Shown here one piece after another: positions 12,128 through 32,880 of a DNA stretch of 64,000 bases; position 1 is the first letter of the stretch; each line of letters opens with the position of its first letter. Below the pieces are notes generated by a model that did no database searches, was not told the DNA's origin, and was given only the letters and a program-made list of their open reading frames with translations. The stretch is taken from positions 1 through 64,000 of the forward strand of contig NZ_FXTD01000012.1 in the NCBI RefSeq assembly GCF_900182635.1, given 5' to 3'. Origin of the DNA: Halorubrum cibi (GTDB lineage Archaea > Halobacteriota > Halobacteria > Halobacteriales > Haloferacaceae). Made by a program: the position numbers and the translations under genes.

Positions 12128-12676
12128 TTACTCTTCAAGATAGGCCGTCACTTGGTTCTGCAAGTGCTTGAACGCATCCTCAGCAGTATCCACATCAGAA
12201 GCCCCTGTGATGACTATTTTCCCGTTGGCAAAAACCAAGAGAACGGCTGGGTGGTCAGCGGGCCGATAGATGAGACCGGGGAACTGTTCTGGCTCATACT
12301 CCACGGATTCCAAGCCCAACGCGATAGAGAGTGTATTCAGATCGACCGGATCATCCAGCTGTGCCGTACAGACGACGTTCTGTACCGTGAATCCGGTTTC
12401 AGTTTCTGCGTCTACGATGTTCAGCTCGGACAGTGTCGTGAGGAACGCTTCGTCCGTCTCGTAGAGCTGTTGGAACGTAGAGCACCCACTGATGATGTAT
12501 TTCCCACTCCGATAAACCGTGATGAGCGGACCACCTTCAACAAGCCGAAGGTAAAGACCATGGTAGTTTGAAGGGTCGTATTCGGTGTACGGCAGATCCA
12601 TATCGGACTCAACCTCGGCGACATCGAGTTCCACACCCAAATCTCCCGATCCGACAGCGTTCGCGATAGAGATCAT
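12128..12676 (-). CDS. tbp: TATA-box binding protein homologue (TBP copy 1)
   Basis: 182 residues built from two direct TBP repeats, each with the pattern Y-E-P/D-x-F/Y-P/H-G-L-x-x-R and an IIxGxxxxx strand: YHGLYLRLVEGGPLITVYRS with KYIISG in the first repeat, and PGLIYRPADHPAVLLVF with KIVITGAS in the second. Archaeal TBP recruits TFB and RNA polymerase to promoters. Length is normal for the family. The start ATG overlaps the stop of a 54-codon frame (12673-12837) that resembles the end of DrmD. Haloarchaea often have several plasmid-borne TBPs, but a pair next to a DISARM locus is unusual enough to suggest dedicated promoters. Confidence 0.9.
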   Translation of the reverse strand: MISIANAVGSGDLGVELDVAEVESDMDLPYTEYDPSNYHGLYLRLVEGGPLITVYRSGKYIISGCSTFQQLYETDEAFLTTLSELNIVDAETETGFTVQNVVCTAQLDDPVDLNTLSIALGLESVEYEPEQFPGLIYRPADHPAVLLVFANGKIVITGASDVDTAEDAFKHLQNQVTAYLEE

Positions 12677-13009: not shown

Positions 13010-13242
13010 TTAGGTGTGATTTCTGTTGTGTACGAACATCTCGCGATCGTAGATGACAAAGTTGCGGTCGAACTTCTCGCGGATCTCCTGCCACTGGACA
13101 GTCCGCGTCCCAAGCGGGACGATGAGCACCCGGTCGTGCAGTCACATATGATAACCTCTTCGTTGACGATCCCGGGTTCGATGGTCTTCTTGCCACGTCC
13201 GCCGGCGAATTTGTCGTAATCGCTCAAGAATAAATCCATCAT
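13010..13242 (-). pseudogene. Decayed fragment with DrmD-like helicase segment
   Basis: Two frames are joined. From 13242 (ATGA overlap with the upstream tbp stop) a frame reads MMDLFLSDYDKFAGGRGKKT and ends in nonsense after about 35 codons. From 13138 to the TAA at 13010 a different frame reads DRVLIVPLGTRTVQWQEIRE followed by KFDRNFVIYDRE. This closely matches DrmD (DRVLIVTPAPLQQQWQEELR, then KFGQEFVIYDRE). The helicase frame has an in-frame TGA just upstream of 13138. So this is debris of a SNF2-type helicase gene. Together with 12673-12837 it represents an internally deleted second drmD between the two TBP genes. Confidence 0.6.
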
Positions 13243-13790
13243 TCTTCAGCCAACAATGTTCTAATCTTGTTCTTCAATTCATGAAAGGCTTGCTCAGATC
13301 TCTCTCTACTACTTTCTCCTACGATATTCACCTTACCCGACCTAAATATCATAACTGTACAATTGGCTTGCTCAGGCGTATACAAAACTGCTGAAATTGA
13401 TTCTGGATTATACTCAGTCCTTTCTAATCCCAATCCGATCGTGATGGTACTCAAATCCAGCTCTGTATCCAAATCGCCAGATAGCACATAATTACACAGT
13501 TCAAAATTCTTCAGGTCGAGGGGTTGAGAAGTAACTTCAGATAATATTCTGGTACCTTCATCCCTTGTATGGTAGACTTCATCCTCCGACTTAGCGCCTG
13601 TAATAATAAATTTGCCTGTACCATAGATTATCATCAATGGCCTGTGGTCTTCAATACGTAGATACAGACCAGGATGCATTTCAGGCTCATACCGCACGTT
13701 TTCAGGTAGTGAAGCTGCTAATGAATTCAAATCAAATTCCTCGTCCAATAGACCCACTCCGACTACGTTCACTATTTTTATATCATCCAT
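13239..13790 (-). CDS. tbp: TATA-box binding protein homologue (TBP copy 2)
   Basis: 183 residues with the TBP two-repeat layout: INVVGVGLLDEEFDLNSLA-like start, then YEPEMHPGLYLRIEDHRPLM with KFIITGAKS, and a second repeat with SAVLYTPEQANCTVMIF and KVNIVGESS. It differs strongly from copy 1, so the two are not a recent duplication. Base composition is much more AT-rich than the AddAB genes and matches the 3' half of the adjacent drmMI, which suggests they arrived together. It starts about 60 bp after the drmMI stop in the same orientation, so co-transcription with the methylase is plausible. Confidence 0.87.
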   Translation of the reverse strand: MDDIKIVNVVGVGLLDEEFDLNSLAASLPENVRYEPEMHPGLYLRIEDHRPLMIIYGTGKFIITGAKSEDEVYHTRDEGTRILSEVTSQPLDLKNFELCNYVLSGDLDTELDLSTITIGLGLERTEYNPESISAVLYTPEQANCTVMIFRSGKVNIVGESSRERSEQAFHELKNKIRTLLAEE

Positions 13791-13851: not shown

Positions 13852-16800
13852 CTAAATACCCTCTTTCACCGTCTTGATCTTCTCTTCTGGTATGCTATAC
13901 AGTTCGTATACCCGCTTATCAATATCTTGTTCTAGTTGTTCGACTTCGTTTTTTAGATTATCATAGCGGCTCTTATTCCTCTGGTAATTTTTGAAGGAAG
14001 TCTCAATATCAGAATACTGAGGGAGTGAAATTTTTTCTAGGCGATTAATGAGGGAATTTGTCTTGGTTGCTTTTTCTCGGAATCCCGCAAATCCGTTCCC
14101 CTTCTCAACAGCAAACGGAACAAACTGCTGAAGAAGATTTTCACGCTCTTGACTGAGTCCAATAAATTCTAGTGCAGCAAATTTCTGGGTCTCAGTGTAT
14201 CCCCACTGATCGGTATCATACTCTTCCGGATCTTCCGGTTTATACCGCGCTGACGCGTATATCGTCGTTTTCGTGCCTGTTGCCTCAACGTGTACATCTC
14301 CAACACGTAGGCCATCATAGTCCTCGCTTGTTTTGCTTAATATGGTATCTGAGACACCTGCTGGTGGTTGGTATCTTGGAATTTCTTGAAGAGAGGCACC
14401 CCATGAATATTCTCCCAAATAATCTGAGAGGTTGATATTGATTTCACTCATCTGGTTCTTGTTATCCAATATATCTTCGACAGCACGGACTATTTTTTGG
14501 TCAACACTCGTCGGCACTTGGAGTTCATGTAGAAAGCCGGTTTTGTAGGCCCGAAAGCCACCGCGTTTCTGCGGCGAAATACCGCGGTATATGAATTCTA
14601 AGAGCTCTGAATTAAGTAAACCAAGCAGGAATTTGAGGTTATAATCTTCGGTAACACGTATACTCTTCACTTTGGTGTTGAAGTAGTAATTTTCATCTCC
14701 CACATCTGCTGTGAAATTACTTTGATCAGATATTTCTGGCGTCAAAATCTTCGGATTTTGGTATATCCCGGAATCTCGTTCGCACCAAAGCTCGTACCAA
14801 TTCCGGTTTGAATTCATCACGTGTGTTCGGCTGCGAGCTTTTTCCTCGTTTTCTTTCAAATAATCCCAAGTATTCGGGAATTTGCTTTTCATTTGATCTT
14901 CAGGAATGACTCGATCGTTCTTATAGGGGTAGATAGATTTTAACACCGTTTTTGGGGGCTCATACCTTTTGACATCCTGCCCTTTCAAAACAGGTTTCAG
15001 AATTTCTTCTTCAAGTTGATATTCACTCACCGTTTCTGGATCCACGAAATAAACTTCGTCCTTAGATGTATCAATTCCTTGTGATATAGACTTAGTCACT
15101 ATATCTAAAGTGACCAGATCGTCGCTAAATGAGCCAAGGACGTTCGCTACTGGTGCAGGTATGACATCCCACGGCTTTTTTGATAAATCAGAATTATTTA
15201 AATTATAATTCTTCATACTTTCCCTGTCAAGAGTCTCGTAATCATTTGGATCAGGGGTATAAACAACGAATTCATCTTCACTGGAATTATTTGATAGAGA
15301 AAGGATACATACGTAGTTCGTGGCCTCACCGAATACCTGAACGTCAGATAGCTCCACGATTTCAGTCACGTGGGACCGTTCGCTAATCACCTTTCTGAGA
15401 CCCTCTCCATAGGGTCTCCTCAGGAACATGGATGGCTGTATATATGATATCGAATTAGTGCAAATTTCTATTCCCTTCTCAGTGAACAGACAATAGATGT
15501 CCCAGCGTCCAGTCGTTGAATCATATTTTGATTTGAAATACGATTTCTGGAACTCATCGAGCGATCGAGAGCGTATGTAGGGAGGATTTCCAATTACTGC
15601 GTCAAACCCTGGCTTGTCTTTCTCAACACCATCAGAACCATAGAACACTTCGGGATACTCAAGTCTCCAGTGGAAATAGCGGTCCCGAGAAGCCCACTTC
15701 TGGGCAGTACGGAACCACTCTAACTCTTCGATTGCTTTCCATTCTTCATCCTCATCTAAAGCAGCAGCCATCCTCTCATAAGCACCACTAGGAATCCCAT
15801 CCAAGCCAAAGTCGTCTGCCGTAGACACATTTGCCATCGCCTCCAGTCGCTGGCGGAGCTTGTTCCGTTCGAACTCGTCATACTTGGCCTCCATCTCCTT
15901 GACATCAGCGAGATCCTGATTCTCGATGGCGATGAAGTCCTGATAGATCCGCATTAGTTGTTCGATGGTCCCCTTCCGAGCCACACCGAAGTCAGCGAGT
16001 GAGGTGTTCTGCCCGTCTCCACCAGCATCGGATTCCAGCTCCTCGATCCCCTCAATGTCGCTCCCCACCAGCGAGTTCCCCGTCTTCAGGTGGTGATCCA
16101 AGAACGCGAGCGGCTGTTCAGCCGCGAGCGTCCGAAGCCAGAGCGACACTTTCGCGAGCTCGACGGCGAGGGGGTTCAGGTCGACACCGTAGATACAGCG
16201 CTGGGCGACCTGCCGGCGGGCCCAGTTAATATCGTGCTCTTCGTCAACGGTCTCGATACCCTGTTGTGCGGCCTGCTTTTCTTGGGCGTCAATAATCTCG
16301 CGAGCCAAGTAGTCGATTGCGCTCGTCAGGAAGTGGCCGCTTCCCATCGCCGGATCAAGGATTTTGAGGTCGAAGATACGCTCTGCGAATTCCGCTGCGA
16401 AGCCACGCTCACCTCGGGCACTCTGTGCCATGAGATCGTTCTGGATATCTGTGACGAGCGGATCTAGCGTCTCCTCCACGATGTACTCAACCACGTACAC
16501 CGGCGTGTAGTACGACCCCGTCGCTTTCCGTTCGCCAGAGCCAGTCGAAAGGTGGACTTCTCCCTCCTCAACGATCACTTCGTCACCATCGCCGGCAGGT
16601 ACATACGCACCATCCTCCAGTGCGAGTGGTTCATCAGCGACGGCGAGCTGATACTCGAGAAGGCCTTCGTAGATGCTCCCGAGATGGCGGACGTCCAGCG
16701 ACGAGTAGTCGACGAAAATCTTCCCACCACCGTTCTGACTCCGAGTTAGGAGTTCGATGACCTCCGCGAGGTAGGCATCGCCCACTTGGTGATTAGCGAG

Positions 16801-18109: not shown

Positions 18110-19456
18110 CTACTCCGATGAGAGCAATTCGGCTCGAATCGCCCTCGCAATGGTTTCCATCAGTAATGGTGGCACAGCATTCCCGACGATCTTATACGCT
18201 TGGGTCCGACTCACCGGGAATTCAAACGAATCTTTGAACCCTTGGAGGCGAGCCGCCTCGCGTACAGACAACGACCGCGCCTCTCGCGGGTGGATGAACA
18301 TATGGCCGTCTTTGTGAATATGCGCGAGGATCGTTGAGGCGGGCTTTCTCGGATGTTGCTTCTTGTATTTATCCAAGAACACATCTCCACGGTAGGGTTG
18401 TAAGTCCGTACTCACATCACCAATATTCCAGCCGACGCCCTCACCAAGTAGTTTGTAGATCGTCAAATCCAGCAGATTGTGCTCACGAGCCTCGTGATTC
18501 GTGAGTGGTGTCGGTTCGCTGTCGTCATCAGTATCCAAGTCCCGAGCCCATTCTTGGTACGGAGAAACTGCTGGAATCGTATACTCATCAGCCTTCACAG
18601 GTGGCTTCTCCCCTTTCGGCGACAGCGGAGGGAGGTCAAGGATTGCATCCGCAACCGTGACGTACGGCTGCCTATAGGATGGCTGTGATAGGGCCGACTC
18701 GTCATCACGATCCTCAGCTGCTTCTTCGTCACCAAAGGTCGCAAGCGTCGCTTGGTCAGAGGGACTAAACGCATCGGGCTCCTGTCGAACCCGCATCATA
18801 CTCTCTGAATCGGATTCGGGCTCGCGGTGCGTGCGCCACGTATCCAAATCCAGATCTCTCGCCCCTGATTGGGTGCCAATGAAGAAGACGCGATTCCGAT
18901 GTTGAGGCACACCATAATCAGCTGCATCGACTTCAAACACGTCGACCTCATAGCCGATCACTGCAAATTCTCGCCGTATGGCCTGCGCCGCCTGTTCCCC
19001 GTCAGCAGTTTTTGCTGATAGCATCCCTGGGACGTTTTCCATCGCCACAGCGGTCGGTTGGAAATGATCGACGAAGCGAATGAAGTCCTGATAGAGACTG
19101 TGCCGTTCGTCACTCGCAACGGATCGCCCATCCACCGACTGAAGCTTACTCCGGCCCATCATCGAAAACGTCGGACACGGAGGCCCACCTGCAACGAGGT
19201 CGAGCTCACCCGGATCAACCGTGGGAAGCACCGATTCGGGACCCGTTTCTGAGAGGTCCGCTTGCTCGACAGTCTCAGTTGTATCACCGAGATTCGTCCG
19301 GTAGGTTGTAACCGCGTCCGCATCTGAATCCGCGGCCCACAACACATCGAATCCAGCCGCTTGCAGACCGAGAGAGATCCCGCCGCCACCACAAAAGAGG
19401 TCGATGGCAGTGGGTGAATTAGTCGTCACTGCCAACGGATTGCCGTCCTCAGGCAA
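18110..19456 (-). CDS. C5-cytosine DNA methyltransferase (possible DrmMII-like)
   Basis: 448 residues with all key Dcm-family motifs: I IDLFCGGGGISLGLQAAGF, IV GGPPCPTFSMMG with the catalytic Cys, VI AMENVPGML, VIII QHRNRVFFIG, and the C-terminal IVGNAVPPLLMETIARA. It transfers methyl to cytosine C5. A variable, acidic stretch of about 100 residues between motifs VIII and IX is the likely target recognition region. It lies between drmMI and another cytosine methyltransferase, all on the minus strand. Class 2 DISARM uses a cytosine methylase (DrmMII) in place of DrmMI, so its presence beside drmMI makes this locus mixed. Confidence 0.9.
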   Translation of the reverse strand: MPEDGNPLAVTTNSPTAIDLFCGGGGISLGLQAAGFDVLWAADSDADAVTTYRTNLGDTTETVEQADLSETGPESVLPTVDPGELDLVAGGPPCPTFSMMGRSKLQSVDGRSVASDERHSLYQDFIRFVDHFQPTAVAMENVPGMLSAKTADGEQAAQAIRREFAVIGYEVDVFEVDAADYGVPQHRNRVFFIGTQSGARDLDLDTWRTHREPESDSESMMRVRQEPDAFSPSDQATLATFGDEEAAEDRDDESALSQPSYRQPYVTVADAILDLPPLSPKGEKPPVKADEYTIPAVSPYQEWARDLDTDDDSEPTPLTNHEAREHNLLDLTIYKLLGEGVGWNIGDVSTDLQPYRGDVFLDKYKKQHPRKPASTILAHIHKDGHMFIHPREARSLSVREAARLQGFKDSFEFPVSRTQAYKIVGNAVPPLLMETIARAIRAELLSSE

Positions 19457-19538: not shown

Positions 19539-21806
19539 CTAATCGTCGTCAGACACAGCAGCTTGTACCGAGCTGCCCACAGCCTCAACAGAGTCACTAG
19601 TGCTAGTGGCCAGGGTATCTGCGACGGCAGTTGCAACGTGATGACCCAGCAATGGTGGCACCGCGTTCCCGATTTGACGGAACCAACTCGTAAATGCTCC
19701 CAAAAACACGTAATCATCGGGGAACGTCTGAATCCTAGCCGCTTCCCGGGGTGTCACACCACGATTCCGTCGCGAATCTGCCTTTTCAGAGTTTACACTG
19801 ACGTGATCGTAGTAATCCGGGATGATGAAGTTGTTACTGTCTTTTGCGAGGTGTGCCACCACCGTTGGAGCGGGGTCATCCCAGCGAAGCATACGGTACT
19901 TATCACCGAATCGAGGCTCATCCTCTGTCCCGACATCGTAGTCAATGAGGTGGCCGTACTCCGTCGAATGGACGATATCCCAGCTGGTATCTCCGGGCGA
20001 CATTGCCGTCTCAAACAACTCTCGGTCTTTCGGCTTCGGATGCCGACGAGCTTGGTGATTAAACACTATCGAGGTGTCTGAACCTAACTTGTGGTCCGTC
20101 ACAAAGTCACTCCGACGACCACTGGTGCGACCGACCGTCACTTGGCCACCCCTTCCACGACGGATCTGGACAAGCCCTGACAGCGCATCACGGAGGTTCG
20201 GCGGGTCATCGGTTTGGTAGTCGTCAAGCCGATCGAACGCGCCAGCAACATCCGCCTCAGGAACAGCGCTATCGGCCTTCCGGCGACCAATAACAATAAC
20301 ACGGTCGCGTTTCTGTGGAATTCCATATTCTGAACAGTCCAGTTCGCGGTAATCGGCGTGATAGCCGGCATCGTCCAACTCCGCGATGACATCCTCGATA
20401 ATCCGATGGTCGGTCTCTTCAAGCCGATTCACGATTCCCATGACGTTTTCCATCACGATGAACTCAGGATCCAATCGTTGAATTGCCGCGATGTACTGTT
20501 CGTACAACGTCGTGCGGTGATCATCGATCACGCTGTAGCTGTCATCATCAGCCCGACGTGATCGGTAGCCCGCAATCGATAAGGCTTGGCAGGGCGGGCC
20601 GCCTACAACCACATCTACATCACCGCTGGCAGCTATTTTAGAGAAGGCGTCTGAGCTTACAGCCTCCTCGATATCCGTTGTCAGCACACGCTCGTGAGGA
20701 ATCTCCGGATGGTTCAGTCGATACGTATCGGTCGCAGCCTCGTTGTGGTCGACCGCCAAGGCCACCTGAAATCCGGTGGTCTCAAAACCCAGTGAAAGGC
20801 CACCGGCACCAGCGAAAAGGTCAACGATGACACTCTTGTTAGCTGCCTCTATAGGGCGTGCCTGCTTCTGCATCCGATACGACAGGAAGAACTTCCGTAC
20901 CTCAGTGGTCAGCTCCGATATGTCGGAGCCACGCATTTGCAAAATGGTTGCGAGTCCTCTGTGGAGGGGTAGGAGGAGACGATCTGTAATATCATCCTCG
21001 ATGCGTGGACGGTGCGCCTGCTCGGGGTCACGAGCGCTTGGTGCAAGCAGCCCGAGCGCGACTGCCCCATCTGTAAGGGCCGGATCAGTCGGCCAGACTG
21101 GTTTATCAAAGGCTGTCAGTAGCAACCACCATGCATCGTGTTTATCGATATTCGGCAGTTCGGTGAGAAATGCAACAAGGTGGTCGTAGCTCGTGGTTGG
21201 GAGGTCAGTTAGTGAAACGCCGTCTACGTAGCGGTGTTCGCTGAGGATGTCAAGTGCATCGAGGAGCTGCTGTGCCCGTTCTATCGCGACTCTGTGGTCT
21301 GTCCGTTCGTCTAGATACTGCTTGAGTTCGGTCGGTGTCCACTCAGCAATTTCTTCCCAAGTCCTGTCAGCGGTGAGCGTGGCGATACGCCGGCGATAAT
21401 CATGCTGGAAATATCGTGGCAAACATCCATCACAGGGGCCCGCAAGGACGGTTGCAGCGACGCTGTTCAGCGGGTTACCGTGACCACTCAACGGATCGCC
21501 ACAGCAGCACGAGCCGTCTTGATCCGAATGTGCAAGCTGGCCCGATGTCGCGTCGATAGTGGCAAGCGCACAGTCATATTTTTCATTATCCGTTGTGCGC
21601 TTTTTTGCAAGTGCAATGTCGGTCGCAGTCGGACACCCAACCGGTAACTGGCGGTGTGTGGTCGCACCATCTGCTAGCAGTGCTTTGGCAAGAGCTTCGG
21701 AATGGCGCATCAGCAGCTTTCGGTGAGCTGCGTACTCAGATGCCGGGGCATCGGCAGCGGTCGCCGCTGCCTCGGCTATCCCCGTATGTGCCATCCCTCG
21801 TGACAT
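19539..21806 (-). CDS. Fusion: endonuclease III-like (HhH-GPD) domain plus C5-cytosine methyltransferase
   Basis: 755 residues. From about 325 to 735 it is a Dcm-type methyltransferase: IVDLFAGAGGLSLGFETTGF, VVGGPPCQALSIAGYRSRR, IVMENVMGIVNR, PQKRDRVIVIGRR and a late QIGNAVPPLLGHHVA. Residues about 145-300 resemble endonuclease III: EEIAEWTPTELKQYL, then ELPNIDKHDAWWLLLTAFDK followed by PVWPTDPALTDGAVALGLL, matching the LPGVGRKTA...PVFPVDTHV region. Asp241 aligns with the catalytic Asp, but the Lys of bifunctional enzymes is replaced by His. A Cys cluster (C100-102, C125, C128) precedes this domain and may bind metal. A TATA box 23-31 bp upstream indicates a leaderless transcript. The methylase call is certain and the glycosylase-like fold is a by-eye assignment. 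Confidence 0.85.
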   Translation of the reverse strand: MSRGMAHTGIAEAAATAADAPASEYAAHRKLLMRHSEALAKALLADGATTHRQLPVGCPTATDIALAKKRTTDNEKYDCALATIDATSGQLAHSDQDGSCCCGDPLSGHGNPLNSVAATVLAGPCDGCLPRYFQHDYRRRIATLTADRTWEEIAEWTPTELKQYLDERTDHRVAIERAQQLLDALDILSEHRYVDGVSLTDLPTTSYDHLVAFLTELPNIDKHDAWWLLLTAFDKPVWPTDPALTDGAVALGLLAPSARDPEQAHRPRIEDDITDRLLLPLHRGLATILQMRGSDISELTTEVRKFFLSYRMQKQARPIEAANKSVIVDLFAGAGGLSLGFETTGFQVALAVDHNEAATDTYRLNHPEIPHERVLTTDIEEAVSSDAFSKIAASGDVDVVVGGPPCQALSIAGYRSRRADDDSYSVIDDHRTTLYEQYIAAIQRLDPEFIVMENVMGIVNRLEETDHRIIEDVIAELDDAGYHADYRELDCSEYGIPQKRDRVIVIGRRKADSAVPEADVAGAFDRLDDYQTDDPPNLRDALSGLVQIRRGRGGQVTVGRTSGRRSDFVTDHKLGSDTSIVFNHQARRHPKPKDRELFETAMSPGDTSWDIVHSTEYGHLIDYDVGTEDEPRFGDKYRMLRWDDPAPTVVAHLAKDSNNFIIPDYYDHVSVNSEKADSRRNRGVTPREAARIQTFPDDYVFLGAFTSWFRQIGNAVPPLLGHHVATAVADTLATSTSDSVEAVGSSVQAAVSDDD

Positions 21807-22113: not shown

Positions 22114-25035
22114 ATGAGTGATTTCACCATCGGTGATCGCGTTGACTTTGGCAACGGGACTGGAGAAATCATCAAAATCGAAGGCGACCAAGCAGATGGC
22201 GGTATCTTGCACATCCTGTCGGCTGACGGCGAGCTAAAGAAACTGCCAGCTGGGCTCCCCCACATCACAGTCATTGAGTCTTCAGAAGGACTGCTGGCGA
22301 AGGGCGAATTTGCAGATCCACGACGCTACGATCTTAGACAGACAGCCCTTGAGCTTTCTGCGAACCGAAGTTACGATCACTTCATCGCACTTCCCCACAA
22401 TCGGATCAAAATTGAACCGTACCAAGTGAAGGCAGTCCATGAAATTCTCTCATCGTACGATCACCGGTATTTGATTGCCGACGAGGTAGGGCTCGGGAAG
22501 ACTATCGAGGCAGCGATGGTCATTGAGGAGTTGGCTGCTCGAGATCGTGCCGACCGCGTTCTCATTGTCACCCCGGCGCCGCTCCAGCAACAATGGCAAG
22601 AGGAGCTCCGCGAGAAATTCGGCCAAGAGTTCGTAATCTATGACCGTGAATTTGTTGAGACCCAACAGAACGCACATCCCTCGCAGAATGCGTGGATGCA
22701 AGAGGATCGTATCATCACATCTGTCGACTTTGCAAAGCAAGCCGATATTCGAGATGCACTCGGGAACCTTTCTCAAGAGTGGGATATCGCTGTGTTTGAC
22801 GAATCCCATCACCTGACTGCCCGACGTGAGGGGCAGGCTGGTATCGAGAAAACACAACGATATCGCCTCGGAGAGGTTGTTAGCAGACATTCTGATGGTC
22901 TTCTATTCCTTACTGGGACGCCACACAACGGGAAACGTGACCAGTTCTACTTCATGCTCAAACTACTCGACCCATACCGCTTCGAGGATGAAGATCACAT
23001 TACTCCCGATGGATTACGGGACCTGATGATCCGACGGCTGAAGTCTAACATGACGCGCGAGGACGGGAGTCGAATGTTCCCGGAGAAAGAGATCAGGACG
23101 CTCCCAGTCACCTTCACACAGGCCGAGCAAGCCCTCTATGAGGATGTTACGGAGTATATATCGGAGCACTTCAACCGCGGGAGTTCGTCAGATTCCAACG
23201 TCGCAGGATTCGCGATGGCGGTATACCAGAAGCGGTTGGTCTCGTCTGTCTACGCGATTCGGAAATCGATAGAAAATCGCATTCAAGCGTTGAGTGGTGG
23301 GGGTGCCGATGGAAAACTGTCCAAGCTTGTCCAACAACTGCTCCCGAAATACAGACGAGACCCCGAGATGCTTACTGACCAAGCTCGTGAACAGGTTGAA
23401 CGTGAATTAGAACAGGTCTCGTTTACTGACAATCCCGAAGAGCTGGAGCAAGAGCTTGAAATTCTCGAAGAACTCCGTGACCAAGCAAGACAGGTCAGAG
23501 TTGATTCAAAAGCACAGAAACTTCAAAAATTTGTTAATGGAATTTTGGAATCTGATCCTGACGAGAAAATCCTGATTTTCACAGAATATACCGACACGCT
23601 GGAATACCTTCGTGATGAGGTATTCAGCTCCTATCGAACCGCAGAGATTTACGGGGATCTCGGTCAGTCCCAGCGGCGAAAGCAAGTCGAACGCTTCGAG
23701 GAAGAGGCGAACCTGATGTTGGCGACTGACGCGGCACGAGAGGGGTTGAACCTTCAATTTGCACACATTATGGTCAACTACGATCTCCCTTGGAATCCAA
23801 ATCGTATTGACCAGCGAATCGGTCGATTACACCGCTACGGACAAGATGAGACCGTAAAGATTCACAATTTGTTCGTCGACGAGACTCGTGAGAGCGAAAT
23901 TTTGGAGCGACTTCTTGAGAAGATCGATGAAATCGAGTCTCAACTCGGATTGAGCTCTGATGTCCTCGGGTTAGTACTGGATGATTTCAACCTCGAAGAT
24001 GAGATTATGACTGCTGTCGCCTCACACAAAGAGGTGGATGACGTGATTGAGGAGGTTGAGCAGCATATCACCGCCAATCAAGCAGATGTTACAGCGGCAC
24101 AAGAGCAGCTGACTGCCGCTGAACACGAGTCAGATGAAGCCGAAACTAAGAAAATCAGGGAACTTATCGCTCGAAGCGAAGAGAACACGGTTCTTGGTGA
24201 TGAAGTCCGTCAGCTACTTCGACAGTTCTTCGCCGAATTTGGTGGAACTCTTCGGAAAGAGACGGGAACGGGGGAGCCTGTTTTGTTCCATGTTGAGCCC
24301 CCGAAAATCCTCCAAGGGAACAGTGTCGACGCGGTGTATGAGCAGGTAACATTTGATCGTGAAACCGCGGTCGAGAACCCGAAATCAGAGTTTATGTCCA
24401 TTGAGCATGAGTTAGTAGAAGCACTGCTTGCGTTCTGTAGCGACGAAGAACGGGCTGGAGGACTAACCACTGTGAAAACAGCCGCCACAGATGAGCCCAC
24501 ACCAGGAATTTTCTTCACATTCCGTTTGGAATGTATCGATGGGGTTGGGGACGTCGTTGCAGAAGAGCTCTTCCAGACCTACATTACATTGGATGGCGAA
24601 CTCCATGACCTACCAGAGTTTACTGGTGGCCTGCCACCTGAGCAAGCGAAGAGTTCCGAACCTGTCAACTCAGTCATTAATAAACACGAAAAGCTACAGA
24701 ATACGGCCGTGGCAGTTGCTCAAAGTCGAGGCGAGGAACTTCGAGCTACAATAGCAGAGGATCGTGAAAAAGCAACTGAGACGCGAATTGAGAACACCAA
24801 GGCATATTTCGACGCTCGTGAGGAGCGTTTGAACGCCGATTTAGAATCGTATCAAGAGCAAGACAAACAAGATGATAAAGATATGTCTGCACTCATCAAT
24901 AAGCGCCGTAGACAGTTAGAAGATATCAACTCCGAGCGTGAGCAAGTCCTTGCTCAACTCGAAACGAAGCAAGTAGTTGCTTGCGAAGAACCAAAGCTGG
25001 TCAGCATCGCAGTAGTCGTTGATGGCTTAAACTAA
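22114..25035 (+). CDS. drmD: DrmD, SNF2-type helicase of class 1 DISARM
   Basis: 973 residues. SNF2/RapA helicase motifs: Walker A ADEVGLGKTIEAAMVIEEL near residue 125, VLIVTPAPLQQQW, DESHH (DEAH box), LTGTPHNGKRDQFYFML, then in the second RecA domain ATDAAREGLNLQFAHIMVNY and PNRIDQRIGRLHRYGQD. The C-terminal 250 residues are helical and charged. This is the helicase that distinguishes class 1 DISARM. It precedes drmA by 84 bp on the same strand. Remnants of a related gene lie between the two TBP genes. It should use ATP hydrolysis to move on duplex DNA. The exact step in phage blocking is not known from sequence. Confidence 0.85.
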   Translation: MSDFTIGDRVDFGNGTGEIIKIEGDQADGGILHILSADGELKKLPAGLPHITVIESSEGLLAKGEFADPRRYDLRQTALELSANRSYDHFIALPHNRIKIEPYQVKAVHEILSSYDHRYLIADEVGLGKTIEAAMVIEELAARDRADRVLIVTPAPLQQQWQEELREKFGQEFVIYDREFVETQQNAHPSQNAWMQEDRIITSVDFAKQADIRDALGNLSQEWDIAVFDESHHLTARREGQAGIEKTQRYRLGEVVSRHSDGLLFLTGTPHNGKRDQFYFMLKLLDPYRFEDEDHITPDGLRDLMIRRLKSNMTREDGSRMFPEKEIRTLPVTFTQAEQALYEDVTEYISEHFNRGSSSDSNVAGFAMAVYQKRLVSSVYAIRKSIENRIQALSGGGADGKLSKLVQQLLPKYRRDPEMLTDQAREQVERELEQVSFTDNPEELEQELEILEELRDQARQVRVDSKAQKLQKFVNGILESDPDEKILIFTEYTDTLEYLRDEVFSSYRTAEIYGDLGQSQRRKQVERFEEEANLMLATDAAREGLNLQFAHIMVNYDLPWNPNRIDQRIGRLHRYGQDETVKIHNLFVDETRESEILERLLEKIDEIESQLGLSSDVLGLVLDDFNLEDEIMTAVASHKEVDDVIEEVEQHITANQADVTAAQEQLTAAEHESDEAETKKIRELIARSEENTVLGDEVRQLLRQFFAEFGGTLRKETGTGEPVLFHVEPPKILQGNSVDAVYEQVTFDRETAVENPKSEFMSIEHELVEALLAFCSDEERAGGLTTVKTAATDEPTPGIFFTFRLECIDGVGDVVAEELFQTYITLDGELHDLPEFTGGLPPEQAKSSEPVNSVINKHEKLQNTAVAVAQSRGEELRATIAEDREKATETRIENTKAYFDAREERLNADLESYQEQDKQDDKDMSALINKRRRQLEDINSEREQVLAQLETKQVVACEEPKLVSIAVVVDGLN

Positions 25036-25119: not shown

Positions 25120-28100
25120 ATGAGCCAGCATAACCGGATGGGTGGAAATCCACCTGACTTCTCGTCTATTGAGTATGGCGACCGCGGGAGAATTGCGCAG
25201 CACCTTCGCCAAACTGTCTTAGATGAGATCACCGGGGCAAATGGGGGCCGGGTACACACTGACTTCCCACGTGATCGCTTCTTCGCCGGGACGTTAGCAG
25301 CGGAGTCTGCAGATCAATTTGACGACTTCGACGACGATCTGCAGTCGAAAATGAAACCCAGTGCGCTCGGTGCCAGCGTCAAACTGGACAACGTCACTCA
25401 CGAAACAACAGTTAAGATCCGACCAGAAGCAAGTGTCTGGGTCCGTGTCAATCCCACATATGACGAGCTGACCGACCGTGACCAGTTCATTTCACTAGCC
25501 GATTCTGAAGAGGACTCATCTGAAACAGAGGATCTCCTTCCTGTGTTCGAACGACTCGAATTGGATATCGGACCAATCGAGATCCCCGGCAAGCTGCTAA
25601 ACGGCGGATTCGAGACAGTGCCGCCTACAGTACAGGATGAGATCGATTCGAAATTTGAGGCTGCCTTCGCACAAGCGAAAGCGGATGCCCGGGCCAGTGA
25701 CTTGGACCTCTATATCGATGTTGAGGACGACGACGGAATGCCCGGGTGGGCGATGGAATCTGAAGAGCAATATCAGACATACCTTGACGAGCGGACTGGT
25801 CCAATCGGGTTCCCAGAGTGGGAAGCCGATCTCAACCTCACAGTTATCGAGGAGTCGAGCGGCCTACATCTCGATGTTGAGTTTGCGAACACTGCAGAGA
25901 TCCTCAAGGAGGACAATCGCAATACTACGCGAGACCCGACGCTCTTCGAAGCGAATCTCGAACTCAAGATCGACGGCGTTGGGGAATTCGTCCCATTCAC
26001 ATTTGACCCACTTCCCGAGGATTTCCGCTATAACCGCGATCTGTGGGGTCACGGTCGCAATTGCACGATTATTGCACCGGAGATCGATACAGTCGTTGAC
26101 GGGGACCCTCCAGGAACACGCACGCCACGGGAGGACCCCCGGACGAATCATCTCCGGACAACTGCGATTCCTGAGCATCAGCAGCTGTCCTACGATTCAG
26201 CGACGCGCGGCCCAAAGCCAACGTTCGAAGCACTGTCCGACTTAGAAGGCGGGGGCTTACAGCTGCTCAAAGACATCCACAAGCAGATGCAGGCGTATGA
26301 TTCGGAAACCTATGAGGAGGCACACAAGGAGTATCAAAAACAAGACGATTGGGACCAATCGGTCAACGGGCGGGGCGGCACTGATGAAGCAGACTTCCAA
26401 GAAGATCGTGACGCCTTTCGCCGAGAAATGGCTCGTTTCAAGCGCGGCATCGAATGTCTTGAAGAATATCCCGACACAGCAGGCCGGGCATTCGAGTTGA
26501 TGAATAAAACGATGCGTGAAATGCATCGTGGGTCGTTCGACAGCTGGCGACTGTTCCAGTTAGTGTTCATCGTGATGCTCCTCCCGGACGTCGCCAGTCG
26601 GGAATACGACGAATTCACGGAGGCGACGTGGCGTGCTGATTCAGCTCCGGGACCACACGACGAGAACGATGTTGAGGATGCCTTAGATGTCGTTGACGTG
26701 CTATGGTTCCCCACTGGTGGTGGGAAAACAGAGGCGTTCCTCGGTGTTGCTGTTTGGAGTGCGTTCTTCGATCGCTTCAGAGGCAAAGACTTTGGAGTAA
26801 CTGCTTGGACGCGATTCCCACTACGACTCCTGTCGATGCAACAGCTACAGCGCATGGCAGAAACGATGATGTACGCCGATCTCACCCGGCGTGAGGAGTC
26901 AGCGATTGCGTCATCACCAGCACATGCATTCAGCGTCGGGTTCATGGTGGGTAAACGGAACACCCCGAATCAGCTAACTGGCTATCGCAGTAACAAGGCA
27001 GCCGAGCTGGCCCGCGATGACAAGCGTCGGGAAGATCTCAAAGTCCTACCTACATGTCCCGTGTGTGGGTCAGAAACACGGATGGAAGTCATCGAGGAGG
27101 AGCACCGGCTCGCACACATGTGTACCGGTGGTGAGCTACAGTGTGCGTGGCAACAGCGGGATATCGACCCCGAGACGCCCTATCACCCGGCCGAGCTTCC
27201 GGTCCACATTGTGGACAATGAGCTGTATCGATATGCGCCGACCATCCTTGCAGGAACCATTGACAAGGTCACTGCAGTGGGGTATCAGCGAAAGATGGCA
27301 CATCTCATCTCGGGGGAGATGGAATACGAATGCCCGTACCATGGATTCGCCAGCTTAGGAGAGTGTACTGAAAAGTACGGCTGCGAGATCCCAAGGGATG
27401 AATTCGAAGACTACGCGACACCAGTCGAGCCATACGACCCGGCACCATCTCTAGAAGTCCCTGACGAGCTTCACTTACTCAATGAGTCGATGGGGAGCTT
27501 CGACGCTCACTATGAGACCGGTATCCATGAGCTCCAAGAGATGGCTGATGCGGGGCAAACCAAGATCATTGCTCCGACGGCGACAATCACCTCCTACGAC
27601 GACCAAGTGTATCATCTGTTCGTCCGAGAAGCTGAGCGCTTCCCAGCACCGGGGCCATATCTGAGAGGAAGCTTCTATGCGGAGGAGTCACCGGAGTTAC
27701 AGCGGCAGTACATCGGAATTACCCCTCACGGGAAAACACACATCAACGCGATTATTGACCTGCTTTTTTACTATCACAAAGCAATTCAAGACTTGCTCGT
27801 CACAGCAGTTGAGGAGCCCGATAAGCTCCTCGACGGAGACATTCTAATCCCGGACTCAAACGCTGCAGAGGGACCACTGGATGTTGAGTCAGTCCCGGAG
27901 TTGCTCGATATGCTAGGGGACTACACCACCAGTCTGACGTATCTGCTTGCCAAGAAAGATGGGGACAGACTCGACCAAAGTATCAGACTGCAGCTGGCGG
28001 ACTACTTCCACAAGCTTGACCGACCGGAGCTGAACCCCGATCGGATGACGGGCGGCACCCAATTCGATGAAGTCCAAGAGCGGTTGGACAAACTCGAAAA

Positions 28101-28956
28101 CCCGTGGCACTCGGGACGCGATCAAGAGATTGTCAGCAGTCTCATCGACCAGGACATTGTTGATGAGGAGAACAAAGACGTGCTCATCGAGCTTCGGGAC
28201 ATTATCGATGGATGTCTGCATGACGACCAGCCAACCAGCGTCTATCACGACGCCTTAGAGAGGGCGCCCGATGAAGTCGGCCAAGGATTGGCCTACCTCT
28301 TGGCGAGCCGCCTCAACTCAATCACCGCCACGAGTATGATCAGTCACGGGGTCGACATTGACCGATTCAACATGATGATCTTCTTCGGGATGCCCCGGGA
28401 CACATCAGAGTACATTCAGTCGAGTTCACGCGCAGGTCGAACCCATCCCGGTCTGATATTCAATGTCTTCCACCCCATCCGGGAACGAGACCAGAGCCAC
28501 TACCACTTCTTCGAGAAGTACCACCAGTTCTTGGACCGCCTTGTCGAGCCGGTGCCGATCAACCGATGGGCGAAAAACAGCATCCAGCGCACGCATCCGG
28601 GACTGTTTATGGGATTGTTGTTGAACCACTATATGTACGAAGACGACGCAGACCGACTGTTCTTCGGAAGCAACGCTCGGCAGTTCGTCCAGAATTTAGA
28701 CGACGAGTCTGAACTTTCTGACGCCATTCACCGAATGTACGGTGGGGACGCAGTCCCTGAGGAGTTCGCCGATACTGCAGAGGCGCTTACCAAAGAGGCG
28801 ATCGACGATATCCAGCTCAACGATGATGAAAAGTGGACAAGCAACCGGCTCGGTAACTCTGTCATGACGAGTCTGCGTGACATCGACAAAAAACTGCGTA
28901 TCCAATCGACGTACCGTTCAAAAGACGTATTCGACACCTTAGACAGGAGGCGCTAA
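25120..28956 (+). CDS. drmA: DrmA, large helicase of DISARM
   Basis: 1278 residues. A long N-terminal region of about 500 residues without recognised motif precedes a superfamily 2 helicase: Walker A VLWFPTGGGKTEAFLGVAVW near residue 530, a zinc-binding insert (PTCPVCGSETRMEV with a later MCTG...QCAW), a DELHLLNESMGSF box, the late motif ATSMISHGVDIDRFNMMIFF, and motif VI QSSSRAGRTHPG. This arrangement is DrmA. In DISARM, DrmA and DrmB form a DNA-bound complex that senses phage DNA. The stop is followed after 1 base by the drmB start, so the genes are translationally coupled. Length agrees with known DrmA. Confidence 0.88.
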   Translation: MSQHNRMGGNPPDFSSIEYGDRGRIAQHLRQTVLDEITGANGGRVHTDFPRDRFFAGTLAAESADQFDDFDDDLQSKMKPSALGASVKLDNVTHETTVKIRPEASVWVRVNPTYDELTDRDQFISLADSEEDSSETEDLLPVFERLELDIGPIEIPGKLLNGGFETVPPTVQDEIDSKFEAAFAQAKADARASDLDLYIDVEDDDGMPGWAMESEEQYQTYLDERTGPIGFPEWEADLNLTVIEESSGLHLDVEFANTAEILKEDNRNTTRDPTLFEANLELKIDGVGEFVPFTFDPLPEDFRYNRDLWGHGRNCTIIAPEIDTVVDGDPPGTRTPREDPRTNHLRTTAIPEHQQLSYDSATRGPKPTFEALSDLEGGGLQLLKDIHKQMQAYDSETYEEAHKEYQKQDDWDQSVNGRGGTDEADFQEDRDAFRREMARFKRGIECLEEYPDTAGRAFELMNKTMREMHRGSFDSWRLFQLVFIVMLLPDVASREYDEFTEATWRADSAPGPHDENDVEDALDVVDVLWFPTGGGKTEAFLGVAVWSAFFDRFRGKDFGVTAWTRFPLRLLSMQQLQRMAETMMYADLTRREESAIASSPAHAFSVGFMVGKRNTPNQLTGYRSNKAAELARDDKRREDLKVLPTCPVCGSETRMEVIEEEHRLAHMCTGGELQCAWQQRDIDPETPYHPAELPVHIVDNELYRYAPTILAGTIDKVTAVGYQRKMAHLISGEMEYECPYHGFASLGECTEKYGCEIPRDEFEDYATPVEPYDPAPSLEVPDELHLLNESMGSFDAHYETGIHELQEMADAGQTKIIAPTATITSYDDQVYHLFVREAERFPAPGPYLRGSFYAEESPELQRQYIGITPHGKTHINAIIDLLFYYHKAIQDLLVTAVEEPDKLLDGDILIPDSNAAEGPLDVESVPELLDMLGDYTTSLTYLLAKKDGDRLDQSIRLQLADYFHKLDRPELNPDRMTGGTQFDEVQERLDKLENPWHSGRDQEIVSSLIDQDIVDEENKDVLIELRDIIDGCLHDDQPTSVYHDALERAPDEVGQGLAYLLASRLNSITATSMISHGVDIDRFNMMIFFGMPRDTSEYIQSSSRAGRTHPGLIFNVFHPIRERDQSHYHFFEKYHQFLDRLVEPVPINRWAKNSIQRTHPGLFMGLLLNHYMYEDDADRLFFGSNARQFVQNLDDESELSDAIHRMYGGDAVPEEFADTAEALTKEAIDDIQLNDDEKWTSNRLGNSVMTSLRDIDKKLRIQSTYRSKDVFDTLDRRR

Positions 28957-28957
28957 C

Positions 28958-30958
28958 ATGGCAATGGAAAGAAGCCGCACGCAAGTAATGTTCCAGTTCC
29001 TTCCCGGGAACACCTTTGACTACAGCGATGGCCGGGGGATCTGGCGGACTAGCTATCTCGAAACCGATAGTATCGGTGGCGAGATCGACCGGGGATATAT
29101 CCTCAATAAAATCAAATACCGGGTCAGAAACTGGGACGGCGGCCAGATGGGCTTTAGCACATTTGACCCGGAACGCTATCATTTCGGCCGCCCCGATGAC
29201 GTTCGTGCTGATCTGTTCCCGCTCACGTTCCGCTGCCAGCGATGCGATCGAGCCCATCAGTACTACGATATCGACGATCTTGAGACGAAAAATTCTGATC
29301 TCACCTGTGAGCGTGGCGGATGTGATGGCGAGCTTCGCCAGTATCAATTCGTCAGTGTCCACAGGTGTGGCGAGATTAAAGGCCTGAATGTTCCCAGCTG
29401 TAACAACGAACACGGAGGAGACTACATCAAACTCAACACACAGGGTAGCCAGAAGGCTGGGAAATTCAAGTGGGAATGTGCGATCTGTGGATGGAATATT
29501 CCGGTCAAATACCTACAAACCTGCGACTGTGACTACGAGGAAGAGCATGCCAGCGATGACGAAGACGACGCCAACGGCGGTATGTACACCACGGTCCACC
29601 GAGCAAGTAGTGTCTACTATCCCCATTATCTGACCACCGTCAATCTCCGTTCGGCAGGACTTGGACAACTCCGAAGCACTAAACAGGGCCTCCGGAAAGG
29701 AATCGCCGCATATCTCGGGTTAGTCGCTGATGATGAGGTCCCAGTTGGTGATATCGACCTAAATGCCGAGACTGAACCAGACGAGATCTCCGAAGAAGAG
29801 TTGGCACACGTTATCGTTTCAGAAGACAGCGTAAGTACGATGGCCGAAGCCCGCGATCATCTCCGAAATACGGGTGAGCTGACAAGCACGACGCTCAACA
29901 GACGACTTGATGAGATATTGGACTTGGAGGAGCTGGCAGAAGAAGATCAGGGTGACGAAGATAACCAGCTGGAAGATGCTGGTGATGAGTTGCTCCAATA
30001 CTCCCTTTCGAAGCAAGAACTTACTAGTCGATCATTAGATGAATTAGAAGCGACCGCCCGAGAGCGTGGCTTCACCACAAAAGCCGATCGGATCGGAACA
30101 TACCCAAGCATCTTGGCCAACGCCGGAATTAATGATGTCAGAGTCATCGAAGACTTCCCCATTCAGACGTTCGTCTATGGCTATACTCGGGGTAGTCGTC
30201 AGGATGCCCAGATTCGGCCATTTACGACAAATAACAGCGATGCCGATAACAGACCGATTTTTGTCGATACAGCCGAAAGTGAGGCCGTTCAGTTCGAAAT
30301 TGACCCTGCGCACATTCTCCTGTGGATCGCTGCTACCCATCCGGAGACGAATGACCCGACCGCTGTCGCCGGCGATGTGACGCTCCCCAAAGTAGACGTG
30401 TCCTCACCAGGGGCTGTTGAGCGTGCGAAAAGTGAGATCGACGAAATGGATGAAGAGGTCCAGCGGGCGTTCATTCTGAATCACCTGACCGAAGTCGATG
30501 GATTCGGGCGGTTCAACACAGAAACAGAGGACTCCCTAGCGGGTGATATTACTGAAACAGTGTTCACGCTCATGCATACGATGAGTCACGTGTTCCTCAA
30601 GCAGGCCTCAACAATTAGCGGCTTCGACAGGACGAATTTGAGTGAGTATCTGTTCCCACGCGCACTGTCGTTCGTGATCTATGCAAATAATCGGAATGAC
30701 TTCAACATCGGTGGGATCACGACAATGGTAGAACAACAGCTCGATACGCTCATCACACAGGCGAAAACAGTCGGAAACGACTGTGTATATGACCCCGTCT
30801 GCTCGCGTCGTGGGGGCGCCTGTCTGTCGTGCCTTCACGTGAGTGAAATCAGCTGTTCGTATTTCAATCAAATTCTGGGGCGCCAATATCTCTATGGGAA
30901 CCACCGCCACGCTGGTGATGAACGGCCTGGATTCTGGGAACTTGCTGAAATGCTGTGA
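28958..30958 (+). CDS. drmB: DrmB, DUF1998-domain protein of DISARM
   Basis: 666 residues. The N-terminal half has several Cys pairs (FRCQRCDRAH, CERGGCDGEL, WECAICGWN, CDCDYEEEH) that are likely zinc sites. The C-terminal DUF1998 region has the signature cysteines CVYDPVCSRRGGACLSCLH and ISCSYFNQILGR. DrmB partners DrmA in the DISARM core. The gene sits between drmA (1 base away) and drmC (4-base ATGA overlap), the invariant drmA-drmB-drmC order. Confidence 0.88.
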   Translation: MAMERSRTQVMFQFLPGNTFDYSDGRGIWRTSYLETDSIGGEIDRGYILNKIKYRVRNWDGGQMGFSTFDPERYHFGRPDDVRADLFPLTFRCQRCDRAHQYYDIDDLETKNSDLTCERGGCDGELRQYQFVSVHRCGEIKGLNVPSCNNEHGGDYIKLNTQGSQKAGKFKWECAICGWNIPVKYLQTCDCDYEEEHASDDEDDANGGMYTTVHRASSVYYPHYLTTVNLRSAGLGQLRSTKQGLRKGIAAYLGLVADDEVPVGDIDLNAETEPDEISEEELAHVIVSEDSVSTMAEARDHLRNTGELTSTTLNRRLDEILDLEELAEEDQGDEDNQLEDAGDELLQYSLSKQELTSRSLDELEATARERGFTTKADRIGTYPSILANAGINDVRVIEDFPIQTFVYGYTRGSRQDAQIRPFTTNNSDADNRPIFVDTAESEAVQFEIDPAHILLWIAATHPETNDPTAVAGDVTLPKVDVSSPGAVERAKSEIDEMDEEVQRAFILNHLTEVDGFGRFNTETEDSLAGDITETVFTLMHTMSHVFLKQASTISGFDRTNLSEYLFPRALSFVIYANNRNDFNIGGITTMVEQQLDTLITQAKTVGNDCVYDPVCSRRGGACLSCLHVSEISCSYFNQILGRQYLYGNHRHAGDERPGFWELAEML

Positions 30959-31878
30959 TGATTCCAGACGACAACCAACGGTTACAGGCCGCATTGGCGA
31001 TCATCGAATTGACTGACGAGTTTGATACCATCGAGGGGGTGTTACTCCAAGCAGCCGGCGCTGACCAAACAATCTCGAGCGGGGATATCGCGACTGCAGC
31101 GGGGCTGTCAGCATCGCAAGGCACGGACTTGGTACGTCAGTTGAATCGTGCCGATGCCATTCAGCGATTACAGGCGGGGGATTCCTATACCGTCCAGTCA
31201 CGCCAAACGCGAGAGCTATTTACCGTGATTCGCCAAGCCGCATCGACGCTGGAATTACACCAGTCGCGAGCCCCACCAACAACTGATGTGACTCCCGTGA
31301 TAACCCTTCCAGAAGATCCGGCGTTTCGAGGTACATCGCCGCAGCAGTTTGGGATGAGTCACCTGATGCCGAGCTTAACCAGGCTGATCAAGCAAGCAGA
31401 AGAGGAAATTGTGCTGCTCTCGCCGTTTCTTGAAGCGGACGGTATCGAGCGACTACATCTCCCGCTGAAGAATGCACTCCAACGGGGCGTCGAAGTGACA
31501 ATCGTTACGCGATATCTTACGGATGAGGCATCATACAACTACTCGGTTCTTGCTGACTTGTGTGAAACATTAGAGAGTGATGCTATCCCGACCGAGGACA
31601 TCCAGTTTGTGGATTACACCGTCTGGGATGAGACTGTCCCCGCCGACGAGCAAGTTCAAGATGGGAGTGCACCCTCATTCACTTTTCACGCGAAGGTGCT
31701 TCTCTCAGATGAGTCTTATGTCTACGTCGGCAGTGCCAATTTGACAGATTATGGATTTGACCGCTATCTAGAACTTGGAGTGGTTCTGGAAGGACCAGCA
31801 GTCAGCTCATTTAGCGATCTGATCGCGTATCTTTTGGACACACAGGCTACGACAGTCGTTCGACCGTCAGTCCTCTGA
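30955..31878 (+). CDS. drmC: DrmC, phospholipase D-like protein of DISARM
   Basis: 307 residues. The C-terminal half is a phospholipase D/nuclease fold with the HxKx4D motif FHAKVLLSDESYVYVGSANL. A strand-turn LLSPFLEADGIERL marks the start of the domain. The first 100 residues look like a winged helix (ATAAGLSASQGTDLVRQLNR). One HKD motif means it would work as a dimer, as in Nuc-type enzymes. DrmC is the third core DISARM gene and reported as less essential than DrmA/B. The ATG overlaps the drmB stop. The 3' end overlaps the convergent HEPN-like gene by 12 bases. Confidence 0.85.
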   Translation: MMIPDDNQRLQAALAIIELTDEFDTIEGVLLQAAGADQTISSGDIATAAGLSASQGTDLVRQLNRADAIQRLQAGDSYTVQSRQTRELFTVIRQAASTLELHQSRAPPTTDVTPVITLPEDPAFRGTSPQQFGMSHLMPSLTRLIKQAEEEIVLLSPFLEADGIERLHLPLKNALQRGVEVTIVTRYLTDEASYNYSVLADLCETLESDAIPTEDIQFVDYTVWDETVPADEQVQDGSAPSFTFHAKVLLSDESYVYVGSANLTDYGFDRYLELGVVLEGPAVSSFSDLIAYLLDTQATTVVRPSVL

Positions 31879-32880
31879 GGTATCCATCTGCTCAACCAGC
31901 AGGTACAAGAAATCATAGAAAAATAGGACATCGCGAGCATATCGTTTCGAGAACGGCTTCAGATAGTTATGATCTACCGCTTCAGGATCATTATGAGTGA
32001 AAGGATTTCTAAGTGCGCCATTAGTACTCTGGAACATATCTCTCACCTTGTCCTGCTTCTGGCTATCTTTCGAGGCGAACAATTGGGGGTCGTCACCACT
32101 GAATAACTCTCCAAGTAGATTCTCAAACTTTTTGCTCGGATCAGCATTAAATCGTGCTCGTATTTCTTTTTCAAGCCCTTGACCCGCTTGGCCAACCGCG
32201 TCACCATAGTTACCAGCATAGTACTGGTCGATACACTTCGAGCTTAGCCGGTGATGGAGAGGCCCGGTGAATTCACCCATGTGGTCGAGGGCACGACGAG
32301 TCTCTGTTGGATATTCACTACAACGGATCGCCATATGCAAGAGGAAATCCAGCTCGTGCAAGTGTTCATGAGACGCGTTTCCCGGCTGGTCGGTCGCTTT
32401 CTTCGAGGAGGGGATGAGCGACTCACCCACTTCCGTATCGCCTTTTAACGGAATGACCAACAGACCCTCTTCAGATATTTCGAACTGTAACCGGGAGATT
32501 TCGTGCTTTTCACCCTCTGTGGTGAATTCTCCGTCGACAAAAGACGTTTCAAATTCGCGCATCGAGCGATCCTCTGCGACACACCAGTCACAAAGGATTT
32601 CGCTCAACTCGTCAAGCTCAGAAGTGTCTAGTAGCTCTACTTGGATTGTTGTAGCCTCCATCAGAGACTTATCAGAGGCCTTGCGTTCAGTTTCCAACAA
32701 CAGTGTGGTCTCATTCGTATCGACGGCTACCTCCAGCGATGCAAATTCTCTACCCTGGAACCCGTCGGTATCCCAAACCGCTTGCTCAAATGAGTGAGAG
32801 AATTGCATCGGAAGTAGGAGCCCCGGTAGTAATTCTACCGTTGCAGTCGGCGATATTATATTATTTGATTGTCCACACAC
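31867..32880 (-). CDS. HEPN/Ymh (TIGR02391)-like C-terminal protein next to DISARM
   Basis: 337 residues. The N-terminal 180 residues show no recognised domain. The C-terminal region (DQYYAGNYGDAVGQAGQGLE, then a helix containing GALRNPFTHNDP) resembles the TIGR02391 'Ymh' group and contains R-N-P-F-T-H, fitting the R-x4-H catalytic motif of HEPN ribonucleases. Such proteins often act as abortive effectors in defence islands. It is convergent with drmC and overlaps it by 12 bases. A later ATG near 32805 is also possible. The HEPN reading is a motif-level inference. Confidence 0.6.
   Translation of the reverse strand: MCGQSNNIISPTATVELLPGLLLPMQFSHSFEQAVWDTDGFQGREFASLEVAVDTNETTLLLETERKASDKSLMEATTIQVELLDTSELDELSEILCDWCVAEDRSMREFETSFVDGEFTTEGEKHEISRLQFEISEEGLLVIPLKGDTEVGESLIPSSKKATDQPGNASHEHLHELDFLLHMAIRCSEYPTETRRALDHMGEFTGPLHHRLSSKCIDQYYAGNYGDAVGQAGQGLEKEIRARFNADPSKKFENLLGELFSGDDPQLFASKDSQKQDKVRDMFQSTNGALRNPFTHNDPEAVDHNYLKPFSKRYARDVLFFYDFLYLLVEQMDTSED

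Follow-up and report, generated by a model that had tools for sequence, protein, structure and literature searches.

The fused gene and its DISARM locus

The DNA analyzed in this study, hereafter the window, is a stretch of 64,000 nucleotides from the haloarchaeon Halorubrum cibi (contig NZ_FXTD01000012.1, positions 1 to 64,000). One of its open reading frames, with an ATG start, encodes a protein of 755 residues in which an endonuclease III (EndoIII)-like N-terminus is followed by a C5-cytosine methyltransferase (Table 1). Genes for DrmA, DrmB and DrmC adjoin the methyltransferase genes, with strong PADLOC matches for DrmA and DrmB. Class 1 DISARM is reportedly defined by DrmD and DrmMI. Candidates for both are present in the window, the DrmD-like protein also resembling BrxHII/HmaA, which PADLOC ranks above DrmD for this protein. 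Because scores fell under the NCBIfam equivalog cut-offs, the locus is, as judged by sequence comparison, a divergent DISARM system of class 1 type. A preliminary description, made from the DNA alone, had suggested a DISARM neighborhood, and the PADLOC and NCBIfam matches to Drm genes agree with it. In the 3.18 Mb H. cibi genome, PF00145 was found at three places, two of them within this locus.

Table 1. Features of the fused gene and the surrounding DISARM locus (positions in the window)
Feature	Position	Strand	Evidence
Fused C5-cytosine methyltransferase with N-terminal EndoIII-like domain	19539..21806	-	ORF and translation; 20 fused ORFs in 391 genomes
C5-cytosine methyltransferase domain, residues 325-735	19602..20834	-	PF00145, E 3.7e-57
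EndoIII-like HhH-GPD domain, residues about 105-315	20862..21494	-	Profile matches, AF2, Foldseek, alignment with haloarchaeal EndoIII
Degenerate hairpin and Asp loop LPNIDKHDAWWLLLTAFDKPVWPTDPALT, residues 217-245, with H223 and D241	21072..21158	-	Ungapped alignment
Cys4 region C58-C79-C100-C102, putative metal site, residues 58-102	21501..21635	-	Conservation among homologs
DrmMI-like adenine methyltransferase, 1381 aa	13852..17997	-	PADLOC DrmMI, E 1.7e-100; Eco57I and TaqI_C domains
Second, unfused C5 methyltransferase, 448 aa, DrmMII-like	18110..19456	-	PF00145, E 4.9e-60; PADLOC DrmMII, E 2.3e-79
DrmD-like SNF2 helicase	22114..25035	+	NCBIfam DISARM_DrmD, E 6.3e-133, under curated cut-off
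DrmA helicase	25120..28956	+	PADLOC DrmA, E 7.5e-153
DrmB	28958..30958	+	PADLOC DrmB, E 1.5e-56
DrmC, PLD-family	30955..31878	+	NCBIfam DISARM_DrmC, E 4e-20; PLDc_2

Two paralogs of TATA-binding protein lie beside the locus, at 12128-12676(-) and 13239-13790(-) (PF00352, E 1.2e-41 and 2.7e-40), and a relative of this protein was detected inside the DISARM locus of another genome (L035 in G101, 14633-15259). Directly beyond DrmC, and convergent with it, a gene at 31867-32880(-) encodes a protein with a C-terminal Hypoth_Ymh domain (PF09509, E 5.5e-12).

Domains of the fused protein

The PF00145 match covers residues 327-727, and the PPC, ENV and QxRxR-type motifs are all present, confirming the earlier reading of residues 325-735 as a full C5 methyltransferase. 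Residues C406, E453, R500 and R502 are invariant in 24/24 fused homologs, and the nearest PDB sequence is M.HaeIII. Between motifs VIII and IX the enzyme also retains a long region of its own, which suggests that the EndoIII part supplements target recognition and does not replace it. The target-recognition region (residues 546-713) was not resolved in the full-length AF2 model.

When the N-terminus was searched as a single sequence in Pfam, NCBIfam and PDB, matches stayed at noise level and none passed any cut-off, the best being the NCBIfam monofunctional DNA glycosylase model NF053634 (E 0.033). A profile was built from 20 homologous sequences (19 homologs came from 391 genomes of the class, at 31-40% identity). 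This profile aligned residues 135-250 with Deinococcus EndoIII structures (PDB 8a5c and 4unf, E 1.9e-5 to 3.8e-5) and also matched canonical haloarchaeal EndoIII proteins, with E-values down to 3.5e-11. The EndoIII alignment spans the first core helix (DDPLDxVAAVVL), the hairpin and the Asp loop up to the LHRALAxH helix, which places the domain at residues 105-315 approximately. The EndoIII pattern that the preliminary description assigned to residues 145-300 or so is real; its boundary is not, as the domain begins near residue 105.

Structure prediction pointed in the same direction. The AF2 model of residues 1-323, computed from 10 sequences, had a pLDDT of 76, reaching 80-95 across most of the core, and a pTM of 0.81. 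When the model was compared with the PDB by Foldseek, all of the 50 matches listed were HhH-GPD glycosylases, including EndoIII, OGG1, AlkA-type and MagIII proteins (TM normalized to target 0.31-0.55, prob 0.94-1.00, best E 1.0e-3). These E-values are modest, and it is the uniformity of the matches listed that carries weight for the predicted HhH-GPD fold. Structure prediction and a Foldseek search were among the checks originally proposed for this domain, and the fusion of a methyltransferase to an HhH-GPD domain is now confirmed by profile, AF2 and Foldseek. Sequence-profile kinship to EndoIII and the predicted fold match both place the domain in the HhH-GPD superfamily.

Ahead of this domain, C58, C79 and C102 were conserved in 24/24 homologs and C100 in 23/24, suggesting a probable metal site; no sequence relative of this region was found in PDB. 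Among the Cys residues first noticed (C100-102, C125 and C128), C100 and C102 belong to the conserved set. C125 and C128 were rejected as members, since they are absent from the homologs and peculiar to the window protein.

Loss of catalytic residues in a conserved scaffold

D241 aligns with the catalytic Asp of EndoIII, and H223 with its Lys, free of gaps, as had been proposed from the sequence. In the AF2 model, D241 sits in the loop directly ahead of helix 242-251, the position predicted for the Asp of a Gly/Pro-Asp loop. The Asp column, aligned ungapped and anchored on the KP(V/I/T)WP motif, contained Asp in 20/24 distinct homologs and Gly, Asn, Ser and Ala in L009, L015, L021 and L127, respectively; it ranked only 87th of 211 in conservation. 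On the ML tree of the 24 homologs, in which the window sequence, L021 and L015 form long branches, these are four separate changes, and the Asp-less sequences are not each other's sisters. Haloarchaeal HhH-GPD proteins that are clearly canonical served as a control, and those examined all retained the Asp (three out-of-frame pattern matches were left out).

Other EndoIII features have also been lost. Lys was found in 0/24 homologs in its EndoIII column, which contained 11 residue types, and the C-terminal 4Fe-4S Cys set was absent: homologs had at most two of these Cys (CxxxC) and the window protein none. Neither hallmark of a bifunctional EndoIII (glycosylase/AP lyase) is therefore present. 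The base-flipping Gln wedge is missing from the fused family, most of the 24 homologs have another residue in place of the second hairpin Gly, and the window protein lacks both hairpin Gly residues (N219 and D221). The position of Glu42 of Mig.MthI is T119 here and Val in most homologs, and that of Tyr126 is H223 and variable. Net charge of the N-terminal domain, compared with that of EndoIII, was uninformative.

In contrast to the Asp, residues W226, W227, K235, P236, W238 and P239, which form a WW...KPVWP core, were invariant in 24/24 homologs. Loss of the Asp in four lineages while this core and the methyltransferase residues stayed invariant says that the scaffold is strongly constrained and that base excision by the known mechanism would be dispensable in at least these four lineages. 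D245, one helical turn past residue 241, is Asp in 23/24 homologs and Thr in the window protein, and could serve as an alternative acid where the Asp at 241 was lost; in L127, an Asp was found one residue after the catalytic column. With the Asp kept in 20/24 homologs, its bearers, including the window protein, could still be active.

Distribution of the fusion

The fusion was detected in 20 of 391 haloarchaeal genomes, in ORFs of 745-848 aa. When the same genomes were searched with the methyltransferase domain, all 20 spanning matches at 52% identity or more were the fused ORFs and the next intact full-length match had 37% identity; an intact methyltransferase of this lineage without the N-terminus was not found in any of the 391 genomes. 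Because every close spanning match carries the N-terminus, the fusion does not stem from an assembly error and is an obligate architecture that has been conserved. In G759 (L122), what looked like a match to the N-terminus yielded no recognizable Cys4 protein and was discarded. Viral contigs that were searched contained no relative, and a profile search beyond the class Halobacteria yielded EndoIII-like proteins only, with no fusion.

Occurrence of the fusion was strongly tied to DISARM. DrmA (E<1e-40) was present in 19/20 genomes with the fusion versus 33/371 without it (Fisher p 1.5e-17, uncorrected for phylogeny), and all 15 genomes whose DrmA was at least 56% identical to that of the window carried the fusion. 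In most loci, DrmA/B/C flanked the fused gene within about 10 kb; the fused gene co-occurred with divergent DrmA types. In 14 genomes, the contig with the fused gene also carried a separate C5 methyltransferase of the 448-aa type, at a distance of about 22 kb or less. The exception was G090, which has the fused gene, a second methyltransferase and a GHKL-ATPase-like protein; DrmA was absent, and other Drm genes were not found near the fused gene.

Possible roles of the EndoIII-like domain

We favor, with a probability of roughly 0.6, the view that the fused protein is a DISARM methyltransferase carrying an EndoIII-derived domain as a DNA- or partner-binding module, for which base excision is dispensable. 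An accessory C5 methyltransferase of haloarchaeal DISARM would have captured an EndoIII (HhH-GPD) domain as an obligate N-terminal module, with the Cys4 region ahead of it, and cleavage of the glycosidic bond would no longer be required of this domain. The Cys4-plus-EndoIII part may bind DNA and/or a DISARM partner, and could steer or gate methylation of self-DNA by the C-terminal enzyme. The fused protein most likely writes one of the self marks, the unfused C5 and adenine methyltransferases would mark other sites, and DrmA and DrmB would act on unmarked DNA. According to published work, DrmAB reacts to 5'-overhang DNA that is unmethylated, and methylated DNA dampens the DrmAB ATPase (PMC9142583). 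The preliminary description had offered a target recognition module as one of three options; of the three, a DNA-reading or docking role fits best, but target recognition itself need not come from the EndoIII part because the methyltransferase has its own VIII-IX region. The occurrence of the fusion without DrmA in G090 counts against the binding-module view, as do the Asp kept at position 241 in 20/24 homologs and the possible stand-in acids at D245 and, in L127, one residue past the catalytic column.

Alternatively, a single polypeptide might write 5mC and inspect or remove the base at its own site, making it a self-proofreading methylation enzyme in an antiviral system. This may take the form of T:G repair, or of a base-flipping readout of methylated or hemimethylated cytosine; we consider it doubtful.

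An active mismatch guard, which would remove T (or U) opposite G after deamination of self-made 5-methylcytosine, as Mig.MthI does, would account for the EndoIII ancestry, the attachment to a 5mC writer, the Asp kept in most homologs including the window protein, and the missing Lys, as in monofunctional glycosylases. However, four Asp losses occurred in proteins whose methyltransferase stayed intact, and the EndoIII base-flipping Gln, second hairpin Gly and EndoIII-type 4Fe-4S Cys set are all missing. In addition, thymine recognition by Mig.MthI uses Glu42, equivalent to MutY Glu37, and Tyr126 (PMC2714593), and these positions are Val/Thr and variable, respectively, in the fused family. Such a guard is thus unlikely, and the two excision-based options raised at the outset, a protein that writes a mark and excises a base and a T:G guard, are both weakened.

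The EndoIII fold could also be a pure docking or autoinhibitory domain that contacts DrmA, DrmB or a partner methyltransferase and makes no DNA contact. Loss of both hairpin Gly residues in the window protein, the invariant Trp/Pro-rich motif and the strong DISARM tie are consistent with this possibility, but the DrmA types that accompany the fused gene are divergent, and in G090 this gene has a partner methyltransferase in the absence of DrmA or a nearby Drm gene. We regard a pure docking role as about as unlikely as the mismatch guard. Finally, a restriction glycosylase that excises an unmethylated or foreign-modified phage base while the methyltransferase protects self, similar to R.PabI and its paired methyltransferase but with an EndoIII fold, would suit the defense context, and restriction by base excision is known (PMC10273834), but it is highly improbable given the same four Asp losses, the helicase and PLD components that DISARM already has, and the different catalytic residues described for R.PabI.

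Comparison with known systems

The fused N-terminus has the fold, helix order, hairpin-Asp loop and Asp position in common with EndoIII (Nth), but differs in lacking the catalytic Lys, the 4Fe-4S Cys set and the Gln wedge, in an Asp that is dispensable within the family, and in the Cys4 region and methyltransferase added on either side. DrmMII is likewise a C5 methyltransferase in a DISARM locus, and PADLOC DrmMII models match the fused protein (E 1.9e-70), although slightly better scores come from generic type II MTase models; the fused protein differs in its extra 320-residue EndoIII-like N-terminus and mostly occurs beside a separate DrmMII-like enzyme. Mig.MthI, also an HhH-GPD protein, repairs deaminated 5-methylcytosine, but is a separate protein with an iron-sulfur cluster, Glu42 and Tyr126, and the fused protein has none of the three. 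In DEMETER/ROS1 and MBD4, HhH-GPD domains are linked to 5mC biology within multidomain proteins, as here; however, those enzymes actively excise bases, and the parts attached to them are readers, not methyltransferases.

EndoIII-like domains, DISARM methyltransferases and a separate 5mC-serving T:G glycosylase, Mig.MthI, were already known individually. A fusion of a glycosylase to a C5 methyltransferase was not found in the literature covered, which was partial and left most subscription papers outside; within that coverage, no paper describes this architecture, in line with the preliminary description. As far as can be told, two features are new: that the fusion is obligate, and that its catalytic residue was lost repeatedly. 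A base-excision repair fold has been recruited as an obligate part of the DNA methyltransferase of an antiviral system, and seems to be retained for its shape, not for its cutting chemistry. With the catalytic Asp decaying repeatedly within a frozen scaffold, the role left to a glycosylase fold when excision is unneeded becomes directly testable, as does the way in which DISARM, a system that recognizes self through methylation, guides its methyltransferases.

Additional observations on fused loci

A degraded remnant of a fused methyltransferase was detected at G334:C2:55015-55344 (L149), with 71% identity over 109 aa and two stops; a DrmA gene lies about 24 kb away. On plasmid phalar01 of halophilic archaeon DL31, the annotated start of the fused homolog (L125, 14010-16166; Halar_0500) is at an internal codon, and an antisense ORF, Halar_0501, is annotated over its EndoIII-like part, masking the fusion.

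A GHKL-ATPase-like protein of about 910 aa, with weak HATPase_c matches and no PADLOC match, recurs beside the fused methyltransferase (L039 12515-15247, L025 5846-8581, L029 5891-8608, L033, L044 and, as two ORFs, L024); judged by position and size, L124 10717-13449 is probably the same protein. Its gene lies between the fused gene and DrmA in several loci, and is kept with the fused gene in G090.
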